64,000 bases of DNA from Porogramme epimiltina (Eukaryota > Basidiomycota > Agaricomycetes > Polyporales > Polyporaceae), in the NCBI GenBank assembly GCA_900155495.1, contig FTLJ01000078.1, positions 62,001-126,000 of the forward strand, given 5' to 3'. Below are positions 21,073 through 43,385 of this stretch, in pieces. Made by a program: the position numbers and the translations under genes. The notes beneath the pieces were generated by a model. That model saw nothing but the letters and a program-made list of their open reading frames with translations, was not told the origin of the DNA and ran no database searches. Positions within the stretch are counted from its first letter, which is position 1, and each line of letters starts with the position of its first letter.

Positions 21073-23529
21073 TCATGTGAGTTTACGACGCTTCCCTACT
21101 CCCGGGGCATCCAAAACAGCACTCTTGCGCTTCACACTTTCGACCAGGCTCTTCAAACTGGGCTGCGGCGCGCCTGATTCGGAGTGCTTGACTATTGTAG
21201 ACTCCCGACTCTTCGATGTCTTCTCCTGCTGCCTTCGTGAACGTTCGTCCAGGAGCGCAGACATGCTCTTAGTCTTCTTGAAGCTGTAACACGGGCACCG
21301 GTCAGACTTAGCACATATGCAAAGAAATAAAGGATACTGACTGAGGATGGCTGGGGTCAATGGCAAACGTGTGATCCTCGAGGACTGCTTTGAACCGTTC
21401 GTCCTTGACGTCGATCGCGAAGTCTTCTTGGGCCTCGTTCTCGTCGTCGTCTGCACCTTTCCTGCCTTTCTTGCCTTTCTTCTTCTTGCCCTTCTGCTTC
21501 TCGGCGCGGAGAACGGCCTTCATGTCGAAGTGCTTGACCTCACCGTCCGGTTTGTCAGACGCAGCTAGCAGCGCAAGCTCTTCCGCGGTAGACTCCACGC
21601 GCGCGCGGCTCTGGTGGTCGTCCTCGCCATCTCCACCCTTGCGTTTCCCCTTTTTGTCCTTGCCCTTCTCTCGAGGCGGGGGAGCATCCAACTCCTCGGC
21701 CTCCTCGTCGCTGTCCGCGCCAAAGAAGTCGTCCTCGAGGTGCTCGACCTTGTCCTTCCCCTTCCCCTTTTCCAGCCGTTCGCCTCCCTCCACCGCGCGC
21801 TCGCGTAGCTCCTCCTTGCGTTTCTTCTTCTTCTCCCGCATCTTCCGCTGGTACTTCTCCAGCGTCGTCTCGTCTCCCTCGCCCTTGTCCGCGCTAAGCC
21901 CTGGGGTGAACGTGATCTCCATGTCGACGTCCTCGTCGTCCCCTCCGCCGCCCTTGTCGCCCCATCCCTCAGGCATATCGTCGTCACCGCCCCCGAGGAG
22001 GAGCGCGCGGAGCTTGTCGCGCTCCACGGCCTTCGCGCCTTTGCTTTTCCTGGCCTTACCCGCGTGCGCAGGTGCATCGTCGGCCTCAGAATCGGAGGAC
22101 GAGGCGATATAGGCCCGGAAGTCATTCTCCTCGATCTCCTGGCGTGTAAAGCTGCGCCGTGTGACTTGAGCACGCTCGGGCTCATCCTCGTCCCAGGTCA
22201 ATTTGACCTTAGAGTGCCGAAGGGCCTGAGGAGAGACATAAGCACGCGTTTGACCGGAGCATAACAACGAGACTTACGGCTGTAACAAACTCGAGCGGTT
22301 TGTATGGCGCGTTAACGTCGTCGGTAGCCTCGTCTCTACATAGTCCATTAGGAGAGGTAAACGGATGGATAAATAGGAACACGAACCGGAACTCGGCGTC
22401 GAAAGTCATGCTATCCGGGACGAAGCTGAGGTCGAAGACGTTGGCGGAGCGTTCAAGCTCAGTACCATCCAACTCATTGAAGATGTGCGAAGCGGCTTGA
22501 ACGGTATCACATTCGACGATAGCGTAGTAATATCTACACGCGGTTCGGGATGAGGGAAGCCCCCATACTGGGAGAGGTCGACATACCGTAGCCGCTCCAA
22601 CTGGTACTTCCGAAGGGCGTCCTCGTCGACGTCCTCCCCTTCACCAACCTCGTAAATAGTGCGTTCATTGATATCCTCCGCTTTCAGGTCGCGCTTCTTC
22701 TTAAAGAGCTCCGCAGGGGGGCCTTCCTTCTCCTCCCGGGCCATGCGCTCCTTCCCAAACTCGCTTGGGTACACACGGACGCTCCGCACCTTTCCGCGCA
22801 CGATGGAGGCGGAACCTCCTTTCGCTTTGCCATTCCCCTTCGAGCCGGAGGCGACCGGGGCTCCGGCGGGGGAGAGGAGGGAAGAGAAGACCTTGTAGAG
22901 ATGTATGGCACGTACATGATCCCAGTCGAGGTTCACAACGGCCAGGCGGCGCGTGTGCTCAATCTCGGGTGAGTCTTGATCTTTGTCCGGATTGGCTTTC
23001 GCAAATGCCTCAGCCTCAGCGTCCAAGTCGGCATAGTTGTCCTCGTCGAGATCGACCTCCGCATCATCAGGAACAGGGATGGGCTGGGTGATGTCGCGTC
23101 CCAGAGTGATCACGCCGCCGGTGTCGCTGTCATCATCGCTCTCGGCACCAGGGGCGGGCTCGTCTTCTTCGTCGGAGGATTCGAGGAGAACTGCTCCGCG
23201 AGCATAGTCCGGACCAGGCTGGAGGTCGAGCGCAGCGTCGTCTTCGTCCTCGAGGCGGTAGAACCGGCGAAGGTTGTCCTGCTCGTGGTCATCCGCGAGA
23301 GGCCGCCCGTACTTGTCGACGCGCGCTGATCATCTCTGAGCATGAGGAACAGACATGAGAACTGACACAGGATGGCCGGCGTACCTTTTCCAGCGTTCTT
23401 GGATTTTTTCTTGCCCTTGTCGTCGAAGATGTCCTTGAACCGCTCGTCGACGACGACCTTGTTCCTGTCCTTTTTTATGCGGCGGAAGCGTGGGTCTGTC
23501 TTGAGACGGGCGAAACGGGGGTCGGACAT
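21073..23529 (-). CDS. ESF1: Pre-rRNA processing protein ESF1
   Basis: Nucleolar factor needed for early cleavages toward 18S rRNA in the small-subunit processome. The N-terminus is diagnostic: MSDPRFARLKTDPRFRRIKKDRNKVVVDERFKDIFDDKGKKK, spliced to ARVDKYGRPL. An acidic stretch (LLESSDEEDEPAPGAESDDDSD) is followed by the conserved core LAVVNLDWDHVRAIHLYKVFSSL, VRGKVRSVRVYPSEFGKERM and YYYAIVECDTVQAASHIFNELDGTELERSANVFDLSFVPD. The C-terminal part has DFAIDVKDERFKAVLEDHTFAIDPSHPQFKKTKSMSALLDERSRR, the second ESF1 signature. Low-complexity acidic and Lys-rich segments fill the rest. At least five introns are present. An ATG 12 codons upstream of 23529 is open, but MSDPRF fits the family start. 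Confidence 0.93.
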
Positions 23530-23961: not shown

Positions 23962-25130
23962 ATGTTCTCCAAGCTCCTCAGCGTCGCCATTGCGGCCGTC
24001 TTCATCGGCCAGGCCTTCGCGGCCCCCATGCCCATGCCTCTCCGTGTAAGCACAGTTCCTCCTGCCTCGGTCATGGACGCAGTCCGACCCCTTCTCCATA
24101 GCACGAACTCGAGAGCCGCGAGCCGAGCTCGTTCGAGACAATCCCCGCCTACCGGCGCGCGAGCGACACCCCCGCGGTTCCTCTAGACCAGCCTGCAATG
24201 TCGCTCGACGGCACCGTCGTTCCTTTCAAGAACACTGGCGCGGTCAAGCGTGCGGATGATACCCCGGCTGTGCCCCTCGACCAGCCTGCCATGTCTCTCG
24301 ATGGCACCGTTGTCCCTTTCAAGAACACCGGTGCTGTCAAGCGCGACGTCCCCGTTGATCAGCCTGCGATGTCCCTCGACGGCACCGTTGTCCCCTTCAA
24401 GAACTCTGCCGCGACGAAGCGTGCTGATGATGTTCCCGCCGTCCCCCTTGACCAGCCCGCGATGTCCCTTGACGGCAACGTTGTCCCTTTCAAGAACACT
24501 GGCGCTGTCAAGCGTGACGTCCCCGTCGACCAGCCCGCGATGTCCCTCGACGGCACAGTCGTCCCTTTCAAGAACACTGGTGCTGTCAAGCGGGCGGACG
24601 ACACACCCGCTGTCCCTCTCGACCAGCCTGCGATGTCTCTTGATGGCACCGTCGTCCCCTTCAAGAACACCGGCGCCGTGAAGCGTGATGTCCCCGTCGA
24701 TCAGCCCGCGATGTCCCTTGACGGCACCGTTGTTCCCTTCAAGAACACTGCCGCGACGAAGCGCGCTGATGACGTTCCCGCCGTCCCCCTCGACCAGCCC
24801 GCGATGTCCCTTGACGGCAACGTTGTCCCTTTCAAGAACACCGGTGCTGTCAAGCGTGCAGATGACACTCCTGCCGTTCCTCTCGACCAGCCCGCAATGT
24901 CCCTCGATGGCACTGTTGTTCCTTTCAAGAACACTGGTGCTGTCAAGCGGGCGGACGATACCCCTGCTGTTCCCCTGGACCAACCCGCCATGTCGCTCGA
25001 CGGTACCGTCGTCCCCTTCAAGAACACCGGCGCTGTCAAGCGTGCGGATGACACTCCTGCTGTCCCGCTTGACCAGCCCGCCATGTCCCTCGATGGCAAG
25101 ACCGTTGTGCCATTCGCCAACAGCCAGTAA
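23962..25130 (+). CDS. Secreted tandem-repeat precursor with Lys-Arg sites (KEP-type, Kex2-processed)
   Basis: Two exons (23962-24045, 24102-25130) give a 370-residue protein. Residues 1-20 form a classical signal peptide (MFSKLLSVAIAAVFIGQAFA) ending at AFA-AP. A 19-residue spacer ending in Arg-Arg leads into 11 tandem units of 31 or 26 residues. Ten units end in Lys-Arg, the Kex2 site; the last lacks it and ends VVPFANSQ. All share the core QPAMSLDG-T/N-VVPFKN (the last unit reads DGKTVVPFANSQ). Eight units start with an ADDTPAVPLD-type head and three with the shorter DVPVD. No Cys occurs in the repeats and no membrane anchor is present. This layout matches fungal Kex2-processed repeat proteins, which include repellent peptides, pheromone precursors and some RiPP precursors; no RiPP tailoring gene lies nearby. 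The released peptides' role is unknown. An uncleaved wall repeat protein is the alternative. Confidence 0.85.
24159..25127 (+). repeat. Eleven in-frame coding repeats of 93 or 78 bp
   Basis: Unit limits by cleavage register: 24159, 24252, 24345, 24423, 24516, 24594, 24687, 24765, 24858, 24951 and 25044 (last unit 84 bp). Units 3, 5 and 7 are 78 bp; all others except the last are 93 bp. Most differences between copies are at third codon positions, which suggests selection on the peptide sequence. Confidence 0.95.
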
Positions 25131-25448
25131 TGTGAGCCCTCCAGCCCCACATATCCTAGTCAGACACTCATTGAATTAAACTTAGGAACCCGCATCTAGT
25201 GGACTCGCCTTGCTAGCGGACCATAGATGTGATCCAGGTGTCGATGGTGAACCTGATTTGCGTACTTTGTATCCTGCCCATAGCCGCTCCTTCGCTTGCG
25301 AAGGTTTCACATTCTTTCTGGAATCTATGATTGGTTCGAGATCGGGAATACTTTCATGATTTGAATGCGTAGCGAGAACGACGTTACACTGGCCCCCTGT
25401 TAGTACATGCTGAAGAAACCCTAGACGATGCGTCGCGACGTGTGCAAA
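25131..25448. other. Convergent 3' intergenic region
   Basis: Between the 3' ends of the repeat-precursor gene and the NudC gene. No coding potential seen; presumably the two 3' UTRs. Confidence 0.5.
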
Positions 25449-26297
25449 TTACGATATCTTCGCTTGAGAGAAGTCAAGCTCGGGATGGGCCTCCTGAAAC
25501 TTCTTCAAAGCCTCCATTTTCTTCATTTCGTCCGACGTGGGCTTGCCCATTTGCTGAGTGGGAATTTAGAGCTAAAATTATACTTTGATTAAGTTGGTAC
25601 GGACCTTTTGCTGATTATCGAACTACAGGTGATCCTCAATAATCCGTTATAAAGAGAGAGTCTCGGGCTACTTACCATCATTTTCTCCACCATTGCCCTG
25701 TGCGGTGAATACGTGAATTTGATTCTGTTGTGGCATAACATGTGGCCCACCTTGTCTCCCCATCCAAGTCACTCAGTTTACTGTTTTCCGGGGTAATCTT
25801 TGTAGTGTCGATCTTGGGGTGGTGGGTCAAGACGTTCTCCCACCATTGCTGCTGGTTAAGCTTCTCTAGATGGATAAGAACACTTTCTTGATCCTCTGTA
25901 GTGGTACCTATAGGTCTTTATCTAGGATTTGGATATGTCGATGGACGCACCCAGTGTCCAGGTACTGTCGTCCATCTTAATCTCTTTGCAGAGCTCTCCG
26001 GACATGATGGGCTCTTTGCCCTTCAGGCCCACACTCAGCTTCTTCTTCTGTATCACCACGCTGAGATCGCGTCCCCGCGTACCCTTCGGCACTGGGACGG
26101 TGACGTCGACATCGCCGAGCTGCTGTGTCCAGCGATAGGGAAGCTCTATCGAGCAAGCAGATGTCGGTAGGAGGCATGCTTGGGGTCGATCATAGTGCCT
26201 CACCAGCCTGTTCGGCCGCCTCGCGTGCGCGATCGGCCTTGTCTCGAGCCTCGCGCTGCTCTGGGGTGAGCTTGTCGTAGTCGTCGGTGGGGGCCAT
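25449..26297 (-). CDS. NudC-family nuclear movement protein
   Basis: NudC/CS-domain protein acting with dynein-Lis1 in nuclear migration and as an Hsp90-linked chaperone. Exons begin 26297-26204 and 26145-25951, followed by several short ones; the total is about 190 residues. The N-terminus is a short charged helix ([31 protein letters not shown]). The CS domain follows: [87 protein letters not shown]. The C-terminal block [46 protein letters not shown] is typical. Two of the last exons are very short (roughly 20 nt each). The size matches fungal NudC. Confidence 0.92.
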
Positions 26298-26537
26298 GGT
26301 GGGGGGATAAGAGGAAACCAAGGATGGATTCGGGCGCGCCACAGCCGCTTTCAAGGAGGGCGATACAAGGTTTCCGATTGAGTTTTGGCGGCTAAGCGAC
26401 GCGTCATGCCACGTGACGAAAAGGGTCCCCTTGTGTTTCCCACGAATAAGACGACCGAGCCTGTTCCCTGTCGTCGTCCACAAGTGGGAGTCGCTCTCCT
26501 GACTGCTCTCTGCCCATCCGGTACGTCTCCGTTCTCT

Positions 26538-29095
26538 ATGGCAGGCCAGGATGCGTGGTCAGACTTCGAGGTACGTTGTTCCTGGCTAACAAGGCAACGC
26601 TTTTGTTCGTGGGGAGACTGATCCCGACCCGGCAACAGACGCTCCGACACAACTTGAAGTCCAACAAGGTCGAGCAGCTCAAGCAGATCCTCAACGGCTT
26701 CAACGACGAATGCAATACAAATCTAACCAAGACCGGTAAAAAGCAGGACCTCATCGACAAGATCACCCGGGAACTGGACGTGTGGAAGAGGGACGATAAC
26801 GTTGAGCGGTGGTCAAGGGCAAAAGGCATTATGAGTCGCGTCCGCCAGAATGGGTGAGTCTTCAACGCCTCTCGATTATCCACTCACCTCCGCCGCTTCC
26901 AATCTCGTGCCCCTGGTTTGCACGCGCCACCATGTCCCCAGTTCCTCTTTCTGACCCCTTGTCCTCTCTCCTCAGCTACTACAACCCCAGAGCCGAAACG
27001 TCCTATCACAACTTCCAGACTTCCTCGTCCCCTTCTGTGTCCTACCAGTCCCCTAGCACCACGCTCTCTGGTAGTGCGATCCCACGCTATGACCCATATG
27101 CACGTCCCCGCATAGCGCAACCAGCGCCCGCAGCTTCGTCGTCCGCTGCCCCCGTGCCACAACCACCTATGCCCACCATCCGATTCAAGTATTCCCCATT
27201 CTTCAAGATGGAGCGTCTCGTCTCTACGGTCGTCGAGTGTCCTGGTGCGTGGCAAGTCCTGTCGTGTTGCGATGGTGGTGCTCATCCTTCCCAGAGTCGG
27301 CCAGCTCGATGGACCGGCGGTCACAATCCGTAACCTTCGTGATGACGCCGGAGATCACGTCCAAGTTGGCGTCCGCGAGGTAAGTGGCTCTCTCCGGGAC
27401 CTGTACACCCTCGTTGAGCCCCCGCAAAGCCCCAAATATCAGCTCCGGCTCTATTGCACGTCGTCTGCATACTACACACCCCCTGGGCAGTTCCGTAGTC
27501 CTGCCACCACGCCATGTCCGATTGAGTTCCCACCGACATGCGAAGTCCGCGTGAACGGGCAGGCGCTCAATGCGAACTTGAAGGGGCTGAAGAAGAAGCC
27601 GGGGACTGCGCCTCCGCCGGACATTGGGAAGAATGTCCGGCAAGCACAAAACGCGAGCAACCGGGTGGAGATGATCTATGTGAACAGTCAGCAGCCTACT
27701 CCCGCGAAGGTCCGCCCTTACTCCTCTTTTCTAATTCCTTGTGGCTCATTGCCGCACGCAGAAATACTATCTTGTTGTAATGTTGGTTGAAGTCACCTCC
27801 GTGGACCAACTAGTTGAGCGGCTAAGAAAGGGCAAGTACAAGCCGGCGGTCGACATTCTCGCCGAAAGTGAGTCGCCCACTCACATCAGGTGCACAGTTA
27901 TTCATACGACCCGTTACAGTGGCTAAGGCGGCAGGTGACGACGATGACATCGTAGCCGGGCACCAGAAAATGTCCTTGAAGTGTCCGGTAGGTTACCGCA
28001 GCCATCGCCGAGATTCTAGCAGATTCCTAACAGGACATTTATATAGTTGAGTTACATGCGGATCGCAACACCGTGTCGGTCATCAGCATGTCCTCATCCC
28101 CAATGCTTCGACGCTTTGTCGTGGTTTTCTCTGATGGAGCAGACCACGACGTGGATGTGCCCCGTATGTGAGAAGGTTCTCAATGTCGACGATCTATACA
28201 TAGACGGGTCAGTCAATGTGCCTACATACCGATCCCGGCGCTCACCCAACTATCCAGATACTTTGACGGTATATTGAAGGCCACTCCGGACAGCGTTGAG
28301 GACGTCATTGTGGAAGCCGATGGTCAATGGCACTCCGAAGACAATAAGTACGGCTCAGCCGAGTGGAAGGCAGCACACGCCTCCGCACCTCGCGCGAAGC
28401 CACCCAGTCCGGCTAAACCGGCGTCTTCGCCTGCAAAGCCCGTTACGAACGGGTCGAATGGTAAAGACAAGTCTCGGCAGAGCAACGCGGAGATCGTCAT
28501 ACTGGACTCGGATGATGAAGACGAGGACGAAGGCCGAGTCAAGAGGGAACTGTCTCCGTCCACTGACGGCGCCCTTCCTCGCCCCAGCCAGCCGTCCACC
28601 AGCGGATCGCAGCTTCGTTACCAGGCCACAGATATCATCGATCTTACCCTCGACTCCGACGATGATGAACCACCTCCGCCCCCTCCGCCTCGACACCAGC
28701 CACCCACAAAGAAGCGGAAGGAGACTGAAGACCCCTCTTCTCCTACTGAGCAGATCTGGAAGAAGTCCCGGCCAGACGGGCATTCTTCCTCGTCCACCTC
28801 AACTCTCACCGCGTTAGTCAACGGCACAACACTACGTATGGCTGACGAGGTTTCTGCGTCCCGACGGCTACCACCCATCCCTCCCCCGTCACAATCGCGT
28901 TATTCGTCATCGTCACAACCATTGTCATATCGCGGGTCGCAGTCGTTCGGTTCTTCCGGAGGGGCCCAGCCCCCACCGACGCTTCAACGGCGCCCATCGA
29001 CGTCGTCTGCACACGAGCAGTATGCCTTGCCGCCGCTTTACACATCACAGCGCGGAAGCGGAGCGGGAGCTTCTTCACCTCGGAACTGGCGGTGA
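26538..29095 (+). CDS. PIAS/Siz-type E3 SUMO ligase
   Basis: SUMO ligase of the Siz/PIAS family, nuclear. The first exon (26538-26570) encodes MAGQDAWSDFE; the second starts at 26639. Domains in order: an N-terminal SAP DNA-binding motif (LRHNLKSNKVEQLKQILNGF ... GKKQDLIDKI); a Ser/Pro linker; a PINIT domain (CPIEFPPTCEVRVNGQALNANLKGLKKKPGTAPPPDI ... VEMIYVNSQQPT, YYLVVMLVEVTSVDQLVERL); and an SP-RING (MSLKCPLSYMRIATPCRSSACPHPQCFDALSWFSLMEQTTTWMCPVCEKVL). The C-terminal disordered region has two likely SUMO-interacting motifs, IVILDSDDEDED and IIDLTLDSDDDE, as in yeast Siz proteins. All expected SP-RING Cys/His residues are visible. Confidence 0.93.
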
Positions 29096-41444: not shown

Positions 41445-43385
41445 CTACAAGAAATCGGACGGACGCCTCGCCGAATCGCCGCCGACCTCATCATAGACAA
41501 GCCCCGCCACCCGGAACGCGAGGTCTGCGAAACATCGCCAGCGGGAACATGGACGAATCAGCATAGCTGAGAATTATGAGACATATGAAACTCACCGTCG
41601 GCCTGGCTCCTAACAGATGCCTCCGCGTACACACGGACGACATCCTCCGTCCCACTCGGCCGTACGAATGACCGGCCTCCCTGGTAACGCCGCACGAGGT
41701 CGTCGATCTTGCCCTGAAGCCCCGGAGGGCTGGTCAGCCGGCGCTCCGCGTCCGTGGTCTTGAAGATGTTGCGATCGGCGACGACGACCTTTACAAGGCG
41801 GTTCGGAAGGTCTACGTAGAGCGAGTCCCACTCCAGACCGCTGTACGATTTGTGGGCTAACACGGTCTCCACAAGGAGCATGTCTGAGAGCGCATCGCCA
41901 ACGGTCTGATTGATGACATTCGTGAGGTTGATAAGGTGGTTCAGCGCGGTTGATTGGGCGGGGGTGGAGGGCTGGTGCGTCGAAAGCTTCTCCAGCGTCT
42001 CCGGGGAGAACAAAACCGTGCCGTGCCCATTGGCCTCGAAGTAAACACCAATGTCGTAGCGTTCCGCAGCGTGATGCAAGTGCTTGACACCTGTCGGCAC
42101 ACATTTCACGGGAAGACGCTGTGCGCTCCATGTCAATCTGGTGTGTCTCAGCAGGCACAACAACCGACGCACCTCTGAGAGGTATTTAGTCGAGCCACCG
42201 TTAGCATATGCAGTCTGCACGATGCCCACGTGAATCTGGCCCTCTAAACCCGCTGTCTTGGTGAGATCCACGATGAAAGCTGCCACGAGGGCAGCGATCT
42301 TGTCGCCGTCGAGCATGTGGAAATGACTATGGTCGTCCAGGTAGTAGTAAATGAGACGGTCGGCATCGCCATCCAAGCTGCAAGCTCGTTGACCCGGTTT
42401 GAGAACGGAAGCGAGCGAAGGGGGTAGCTTTTGAGATGTCTTGACGAAGTCGGCACCACACGCGTGGTTGAGAGCTCCAAGGGTGTCGATCGCAGTGTTT
42501 TGGAGGACGATTGGTAACGATTCGCCGAGGAGCGCGACAAGCTTTTCTCCTACAATTGCGCCCACACCATTGGCGCAGTCTATAACAAGAGGAGGAAGGG
42601 CAGGTTTGCCGGTCTAGGACGCGTGTTACTAGAGCCCCTGGTCGGAGACGCACATTGCGACTCACCACCAATTTCTTGAAGGCTCCGCTGAGCTTTTGCA
42701 AGTATCCCTCTTCGGAGTCATCGCCGTACGAGTCTTTGGTTCCCTTCGTGTTGATAGCCTTGACGAGATAGTGAAGCACAGGCGTAGTGGTAACGCCGGC
42801 ATCACGAGCCTCGACGCCCATGGCCTTGAACCCGTCCTCAAGTGAAGCGATCAACGCAGGCCCGGATGGGCGTGTGTCCCTTGCATACACAACTCTTGCC
42901 GGCTTGGACAAGTCAATCCTAAGGTCCGTAACTAGGCCCTTCAATGCTTCAATGAGGGCTTTCGTGGTGGGCGCATTGGCCAGAGTGGTGGCATGGGTCT
43001 CCCAGGATGCCTCAAGCATCTCGCCTCGCGGGTCGACAAGTTTAACGCCGTTGTCCTAGGAAAGTCGTTTAGATCTTCGTAAGTAGATCTCCACAAGCGT
43101 ACACACAGGCTCTGGGTTATGAGATGCCGTAACCATAACGCCAATCGTCTTGCCATCCAACTTCTTGCTCCTCAAAGCCGCAAGGAGGCCAACGCGGAAC
43201 ATAACAGGGTCCAGGGCACTTCCCCTAGGACAGGACATATCAATATTAGCATCTATGGCATGGAAGGGCCTGAAGAGTACTTACAGTGTCCTGAAGCCTG
43301 CGGTTCCATACTGGAAAAGGACGTTAGGAGGCTTGGGGTGCTGGTCGGCCAGGGACTGGATGGCGTCTACAGGTAGGTCGGACAT
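41445..43385 (-). CDS. PCM1: Phosphoacetylglucosamine mutase
   Basis: Converts N-acetylglucosamine 6-phosphate to the 1-phosphate, on the way to UDP-GlcNAc for chitin, N-glycans and GPI anchors. The start at 43385 gives [32 protein letters not shown]. The phosphoserine loop is [18 protein letters not shown], the metal loop [13 protein letters not shown], the sugar-binding region [15 protein letters not shown] and the phosphate-binding loop [18 protein letters not shown]. All four expected signatures of the alpha-D-phosphohexomutase family are thus intact, and the AGM1-specific context ([18 protein letters not shown]) is clear. Introns are short; the last exon encodes [16 protein letters not shown] before the stop at 41445. 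Confidence 0.95.

Follow-up and report, generated by a model that had tools for sequence, protein, structure and literature searches.

A polypore gene for eleven tandem Kex2-bounded peptides as a probable member of the agaricomycete KEP 497993 family

Within the 64,000-nucleotide stretch of Porogramme epimiltina DNA that we analysed (the window), the gene at positions 23962-25130 very probably belongs, judging from its predicted product, to the conserved KEP 497993 family of agaricomycetes, as a polypore representative whose precursor is matured by Kex2 and Kex1. The preliminary description of this DNA had seen here the best candidate for an undescribed secreted peptide family, with a core resembling no peptide known to its author. 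Neither claim survived, as the core matches the peptides of Coprinopsis cinerea KEP 497993 without gaps, and a protein search with a unit bait returned five database proteins (P0121 from Termitomyces, P0122 from Lentinula edodes, P0123 from a JGI record, P0124 from L. lateritia and P0125 from Tulasnella) that, with the window gene, probably belong to a KEP type already surveyed, type G-1. What had looked like an orphan finds its place in a mushroom peptide family that is broadly conserved and already known, while the 11 units, their two main lengths and the absence of an N-terminal Gln are specific to this member.

The gene comprises the following features, given with the basis of each assignment:

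23962..24045, plus strand: exon 1, encoding an apparent signal peptide and the start of the pre-unit region (MFSKLLSVAIAAVFIGQAFAAPMPMPLR); sequence reading and the similar signal peptides of P0123 and P0125
24046..24101, plus strand: intron of 56 nt, GTAAGC...CATAG; consensus ends, open frame and flanking-protein homology
24102..24158, plus strand: pre-unit region ending in the Arg-Arg site (HELESREPSSFETIPAYRR); sequence, with a resemblance to P0123
24159..25043, plus strand: ten units of 31 or 26 residues, each with a terminal Lys-Arg; unit coordinates and unit HMM
25044..25130, plus strand: eleventh unit of 28 residues without Lys-Arg, and the stop codon; sequence

Translation from the ATG at 23962, continued through exon 2 (24102-25130, including the stop codon), gives a precursor of 370 residues without a single Cys, in which the Arg-Arg site (AYRR) stands immediately before unit 1. 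The coordinates proposed in the preliminary description were correct, and the unit listing bore out the layout it had claimed, namely Arg-Arg, ten Lys-Arg units, a final unit without the pair and no Cys. Both the signal peptide and the splice sites were read from sequence and homology. The tested stretch contains 16 frame-keeping GT/AG pairs, hence 15 alternatives to the chosen intron, which was preferred because of its GTAAGC donor, its CATAG acceptor and the P0123-like pre-unit region that it yields (...TIPAYRR in the window, ...TIPVYVKR in P0123). The apparent signal peptide looks typical by eye and resembles those of two of the four relatives taken into the N-terminal shuffle tests, from which P0124 was left out: the observed score was reached by 0 of 5000 shuffles for both P0123 and P0125, and by 116 and 1183 for P0121 and P0122, respectively. 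For the pre-unit region the corresponding counts, again of 5000, were 24 (P0123), 659 (P0121), 632 (P0122) and 2497 (P0125), so that the likeness is good for P0123 and not significant for the other three. The gene is flanked by two minus-strand housekeeping genes, one ESF1-like (RRM_ESF1 in 22409-23329) and one with a CS domain (25922-26350), the latter followed by a PINIT-domain gene (27116-27790). An antisense open frame of 330 residues (24183-25175, minus strand) spans the entire array and is probably a by-product of codon composition.

Including Lys-Arg, the first ten units measure 31, 31, 26, 31, 26, 31, 26, 31, 31 and 31 residues, and the last measures 28 without it. With Arg-Arg before the first unit and Lys-Arg after ten, the precursor consists of repeated units between dibasic Kex2 sites, and the KEP-type architecture recognised earlier was right. 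TRF detected the array, reporting a period of 171 bp, the length of one 31-residue plus one 26-residue unit. Pairwise comparison of the 16-residue cores (10 of the 11, the eleventh being left out for a one-residue insertion) counted 244 synonymous against 17 non-synonymous differences, with pS 0.50, pN 0.010 and dN/dS 0.012. Purifying selection on the units is strong, and what is conserved is the peptide rather than the DNA; together, the TRF detection and the synonymous excess among the cores argue that the array is not a chance occurrence. With a charge of -2 to -3 the units are acidic, and their hydropathy is near neutral (GRAVY -0.22 to 0.16); they contain Phe in place of Tyr and no Trp, and each of them starts with Ala or Asp.

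The assignment to a family draws on C. cinerea KEP 497993, which yields pyro-QVPVDEPA and pyro-QIPAELPTKSINGNIEPY, plus K and KV forms, according to the peptide results of Vogt et al. (2022; PMC9769878); these peptides were detected by mass spectrometry in culture fluid, mycelium and young caps and were absent in the knockout (PMC9769878). We compared KEP 497993 through its detected peptides, on the assumption that Kex2 cleavage defines their N termini as it does those of the relatives' units. Counting from the Kex2 cut, the C. cinerea peptides align without gaps onto DVPVDQPAMSLDGTVVPFKN of the 26-residue units, with 6 of 18 positions identical and 12 of 18 positive between the unit and C. 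cinerea QIPAELPTKSINGNIEPYKV. The score of the 20-residue peptide was reached by 2 or 4 of 1,000,000 shuffles, depending on which of two unit forms was used, that of the 18-residue form by 16 or 29, and that of QVPVDEPA, for which 7 of 7 positions are positive, by 984 or 1624. Both matches share one register when positions in the 26-residue units are counted from the Kex2 cut. Ten control peptides from the same paper (PMC9769878; KEP and three GH128-type) gave no match, with at least 11% of 100,000 shuffles reaching each score.

C. cinerea KEP 497993 and its homologs have in common with the window gene a secreted KEX2-type precursor and the unit x-[IV]-P-x-[DE]-x-P-x-x-S-x-[ND]-G-x-[IV]-x-P-[FY]-K. 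They differ at the N terminus, as the C. cinerea peptides start with pyroglutamate whereas none of the 11 window units starts with Gln. The relatives' units begin with Gln in 23 of 27 cases and with Asp in the other 4, and because the trait varies within the relatives' own precursors we did not treat N-terminal Gln as defining the family. The 11 units and two main lengths of the window precursor are set against a KEP 497993 that is known here from its peptides.

The five relatives were found in a bait-alignment search (E<=10 among 7999 scored candidates), with E-values from 4e-34 to 2.8e-8. Since the bait contained window units, these proteins were selected for likeness; the C. cinerea peptide match and the signal-peptide match are independent of the bait letters. 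An HMM of the relatives' 27 units, built without window or C. cinerea letters and with the two-residue tails of P0122 and P0124 dropped, scored the window precursor at 191.5 bits and reported 11 domains, 10 of them above the inclusion threshold, compared with 15.3 bits for the best of 2000 unit-shuffled precursors, which kept the repeat structure, and 6.3 bits for the best unrelated frame of the window. A BLASTP alignment with P0123 (56.6 bits, E 2e-14) begins in the signal peptide and extends across the units. All five share with the window precursor an apparent signal peptide, a pre-unit region, units bounded by Lys-Arg or Arg-Arg and the same motif, but they carry 4 to 6 units of mostly 18-21 residues where the window has 11, mainly of 31 or 26, and Tyr is present in most of their units and absent from those of the window. 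Such a comparison reveals the residues that Agaricomycetes have kept while the units changed in length, in number and in whether they begin with Gln. The third unit of P0125 ends in IVPFKNTGKR, close to its window counterpart (...VVPFKNTGAVKR), and the Asn-Thr-Gly tail may consequently be old. The protein models of P0121 and P0123 seem to begin too far upstream, their apparent signal peptides starting from an internal Met.

Other searches returned little. A protein search with the whole precursor gave no relative at E<=0.001 among 8000 candidates scored, which we do not read as absence; presumably the choice of candidates by shared words, or their length range, set the limit. The viral and prokaryote sequence collections gave no relative, as expected for a fungal gene. 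In Pfam and NCBIfam every match lay below the curated cut-offs (by E-value, 1.4e-8, a photosystem model ranked first, with 34.9 of 306 bits), and we take these matches as spurious products of repetitive sequence. None of the core strings SLDGTVVPF, DGTVVPFKN, DQPAMSLDG and QPAMSLD occurs in the main texts of the papers searched.

In the survey of Umemura (2020; PMC7329392), the most ubiquitous KEP type is G-1/P-2 (#7), with 64 KEPs in 62 strains and 49 genera, that is, 1.03 KEPs per strain, and with DUF3328 neighbours in 0 of the 64 as the type is tabulated there. Among the genera in which the type occurs are Coprinopsis, Termitomyces, Trametes, Ganoderma, Lentinus and Polyporus, and the Pfam labels attached to it, 26 per the text and 27 as counted in the table, include Cytomega_UL20A and DUF2188 (PMC7329392). 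Used solely as a fingerprint against this list, the sub-threshold Pfam matches of the window and its relatives fell among the type G-1 labels in 2 of 8 cases, Cytomega_UL20A for the window and DUF2188 for P0123, for which a crude binomial chance is 3e-5 (26 names). These genera and labels, as distinct from member sequences, suggest that the window gene probably belongs to type G-1. Two observations speak against it: the type profile is described as Tyr-rich (PMC7329392), unlike the window units, and the whole-precursor search gave no relative though Trametes, Ganoderma, Lentinus and Polyporus belong to the type. The one conserved Basidiomycota KEP motif named in the relevant part of Le Marquer et al. 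(2019; PMC6339444), XSDW, differs from the window core.

We searched the genome (41.9 Mb, 926 contigs) for the enzymes that such a precursor would meet. One P-proprotein-domain match with an adjacent subtilase match, on contig C599, is of Kex2 type; there are 56 S10 carboxypeptidase matches, three DPPIV_N matches at a single place on C629, and 11 M28 peptidase matches, which were not assigned as glutaminyl cyclase. According to the proposed pathway, the signal peptide would bring the precursor into the secretory pathway, Golgi Kex2 would cleave after Arg-Arg and each Lys-Arg, and Kex1 would then take off the C-terminal Lys-Arg. The secreted products would be linear peptides of 24, 29 and, from the last unit, 28 residues, possibly trimmed further, that would share the core QPAMSLDG[T/N]VVPFKN (GKTVVPFAN in the last unit); the 24- or 29-residue products predicted earlier agree with the unit lengths minus Lys-Arg, to which the last unit adds 28. 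The calculated monoisotopic masses are 2456.2257, 2458.2049 and 2472.2206 for the 24-residue products, 2925.4429, 2936.4589 and 2897.4480 for those of 29 residues, and 2883.3960 for that of 28. An XP or XA dipeptide opens 0 of the 11 window units, against 2 of the 27 units of relatives, so trimming by Ste13 is not expected, and since no window unit begins with Gln a pyroglutamate cap would be unavailable at the N terminus that Kex2 makes. The genome searches found no second copy of the precursor: four of them gave one, four, two and two matches within this gene, the last also giving two others at E 1.3 and 3.4. Contig C59, which holds the window, has none of the genome's 19 UstYa matches; the single copy and the lack of a UstYa match on the contig make linear peptides likely. 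Processing in this species is likewise likely by analogy with the C. cinerea relative, for which processing and secretion have been shown. Elsewhere in the genome, seven contigs (C326, C226, C316, C223, C403, C293 and C26) carry two or three UstYa (DUF3328) matches each and possibly bear dikaritin-like RiPP clusters.

The C. cinerea work did not settle what the family does, and the core and product masses provide exact targets for asking. In our tentative proposal, which may well prove wrong, the peptides would serve as signals outside the cell, received by the producing fungus or by other organisms; toxins or cyclic metabolites are less likely. Such a role fits the spread of the family in Agaricomycetes, the roughly one copy per strain (if the gene is of type G-1) and the secretion of the relative, and Vogt et al. 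favour a role of KEP 497993 towards the biotic environment (PMC9769878). It is unproven, since in the experiments that their paper describes the knockout in axenic C. cinerea grew and fruited normally with no visible phenotype, and the synthetic KEP 497993 peptides assayed had no inhibitory effect on five bacterial strains (PMC9769878).

The preliminary description had considered repellents, pheromones and cyclic RiPPs as outcomes, of which the repellent is left, the absence of UstYa on the contig counting against a cyclic RiPP and that of XP/XA starts against an alpha-type pheromone. Repellent-like surface peptides, released by Kex2 and forming surface-active fibrils on the hyphal wall as with Ustilago maydis Rep1, are an improbable outcome. 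Kex2-bounded tandem units occur in both precursors, the window units are slightly shorter than the 35-53 aa of the Rep1 peptides (PMC4617103), and the STE13 signature missing from Rep1 as characterised by Le Marquer et al. (PMC6339444) is missing from the window units too. Rep1 units, however, are longer, amphipathic and fibril-forming, in a comparison drawn on layout, length, charge and hydropathy; those of the window are acidic and near neutral in hydropathy, and the peptide of the C. cinerea relative is present in culture fluid (PMC9769878). That the product might function uncut, as a repetitive secreted protein, is very unlikely: maturation in this species is predicted from sequence, which leaves room for this reading, but a dibasic site ends each of the first ten units and the C. 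cinerea relative is processed (PMC9769878). We give still less credence to an alpha-pheromone-type peptide matured by Kex2, Kex1 and Ste13, for while the precursor is multi-copy, a DPPIV-type gene is present in the genome and alpha-type signatures are known in Basidiomycota KEPs (PMC6339444), the units lack both the STE13 start and Trp, and basidiomycete mating pheromones are described as prenylated and of a-type (PMC9769878). Least credible is a dikaritin-like cyclic RiPP precursor of ustiloxin type, which a signal peptide, Kex2-bounded repeats and the genome's UstYa matches would suit, but against which stand a contig free of UstYa, units without Tyr and the missing DUF3328 neighbours of type G-1 KEPs in Umemura's table (PMC7329392).

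Hormone roles have been proposed for basidiomycete KEPs that bear STE13 signatures (Le Marquer et al., PMC6339444), which the window precursor does not carry. An extended form of the signalling proposal, which we regard as speculative and on the whole unlikely, would make the S-x-[ND]-G-x-[IV]-x-P-[FY] core the hormone-like ligand of an undescribed Agaricomycetes-wide receptor, predating the split of Tulasnella from Agaricales/Polyporales; the polypore precursor would then have lost the pyroglutamate cap and would make two N-terminal forms (ADDTPAVPLD- and DVPVD-) of one ligand from one gene.

A likeness to the yeast alpha-factor leader (QIPAE...PFSNST; PMC7828362), in which QIPAE and PF-N recur as in the family units, was considered and rejected. 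Its score was reached by 155 of 20000 shuffles with the relatives' HMM and by 204 with the HMM that included the window, five letters drive the score, the profile comparison gave a probability of 1.1%, and the candidate had been picked after being seen.

Elsewhere in the window, at 41561-42613, lies an AMG1 fragment that is 83-85% identical to proteins of Cerioporus, Trametes coccinea, Lentinus, Polyporus, Fomes and Ganoderma (best 7 of 120 matches listed, of 6089 in total), and that is 86% identical to a shorter record, P0115, over 81% of the query. The host is accordingly Polyporaceae-like, as most genera among these best-ranked listed matches belong to the Polyporaceae, in which we presume Cerioporus also to fall.
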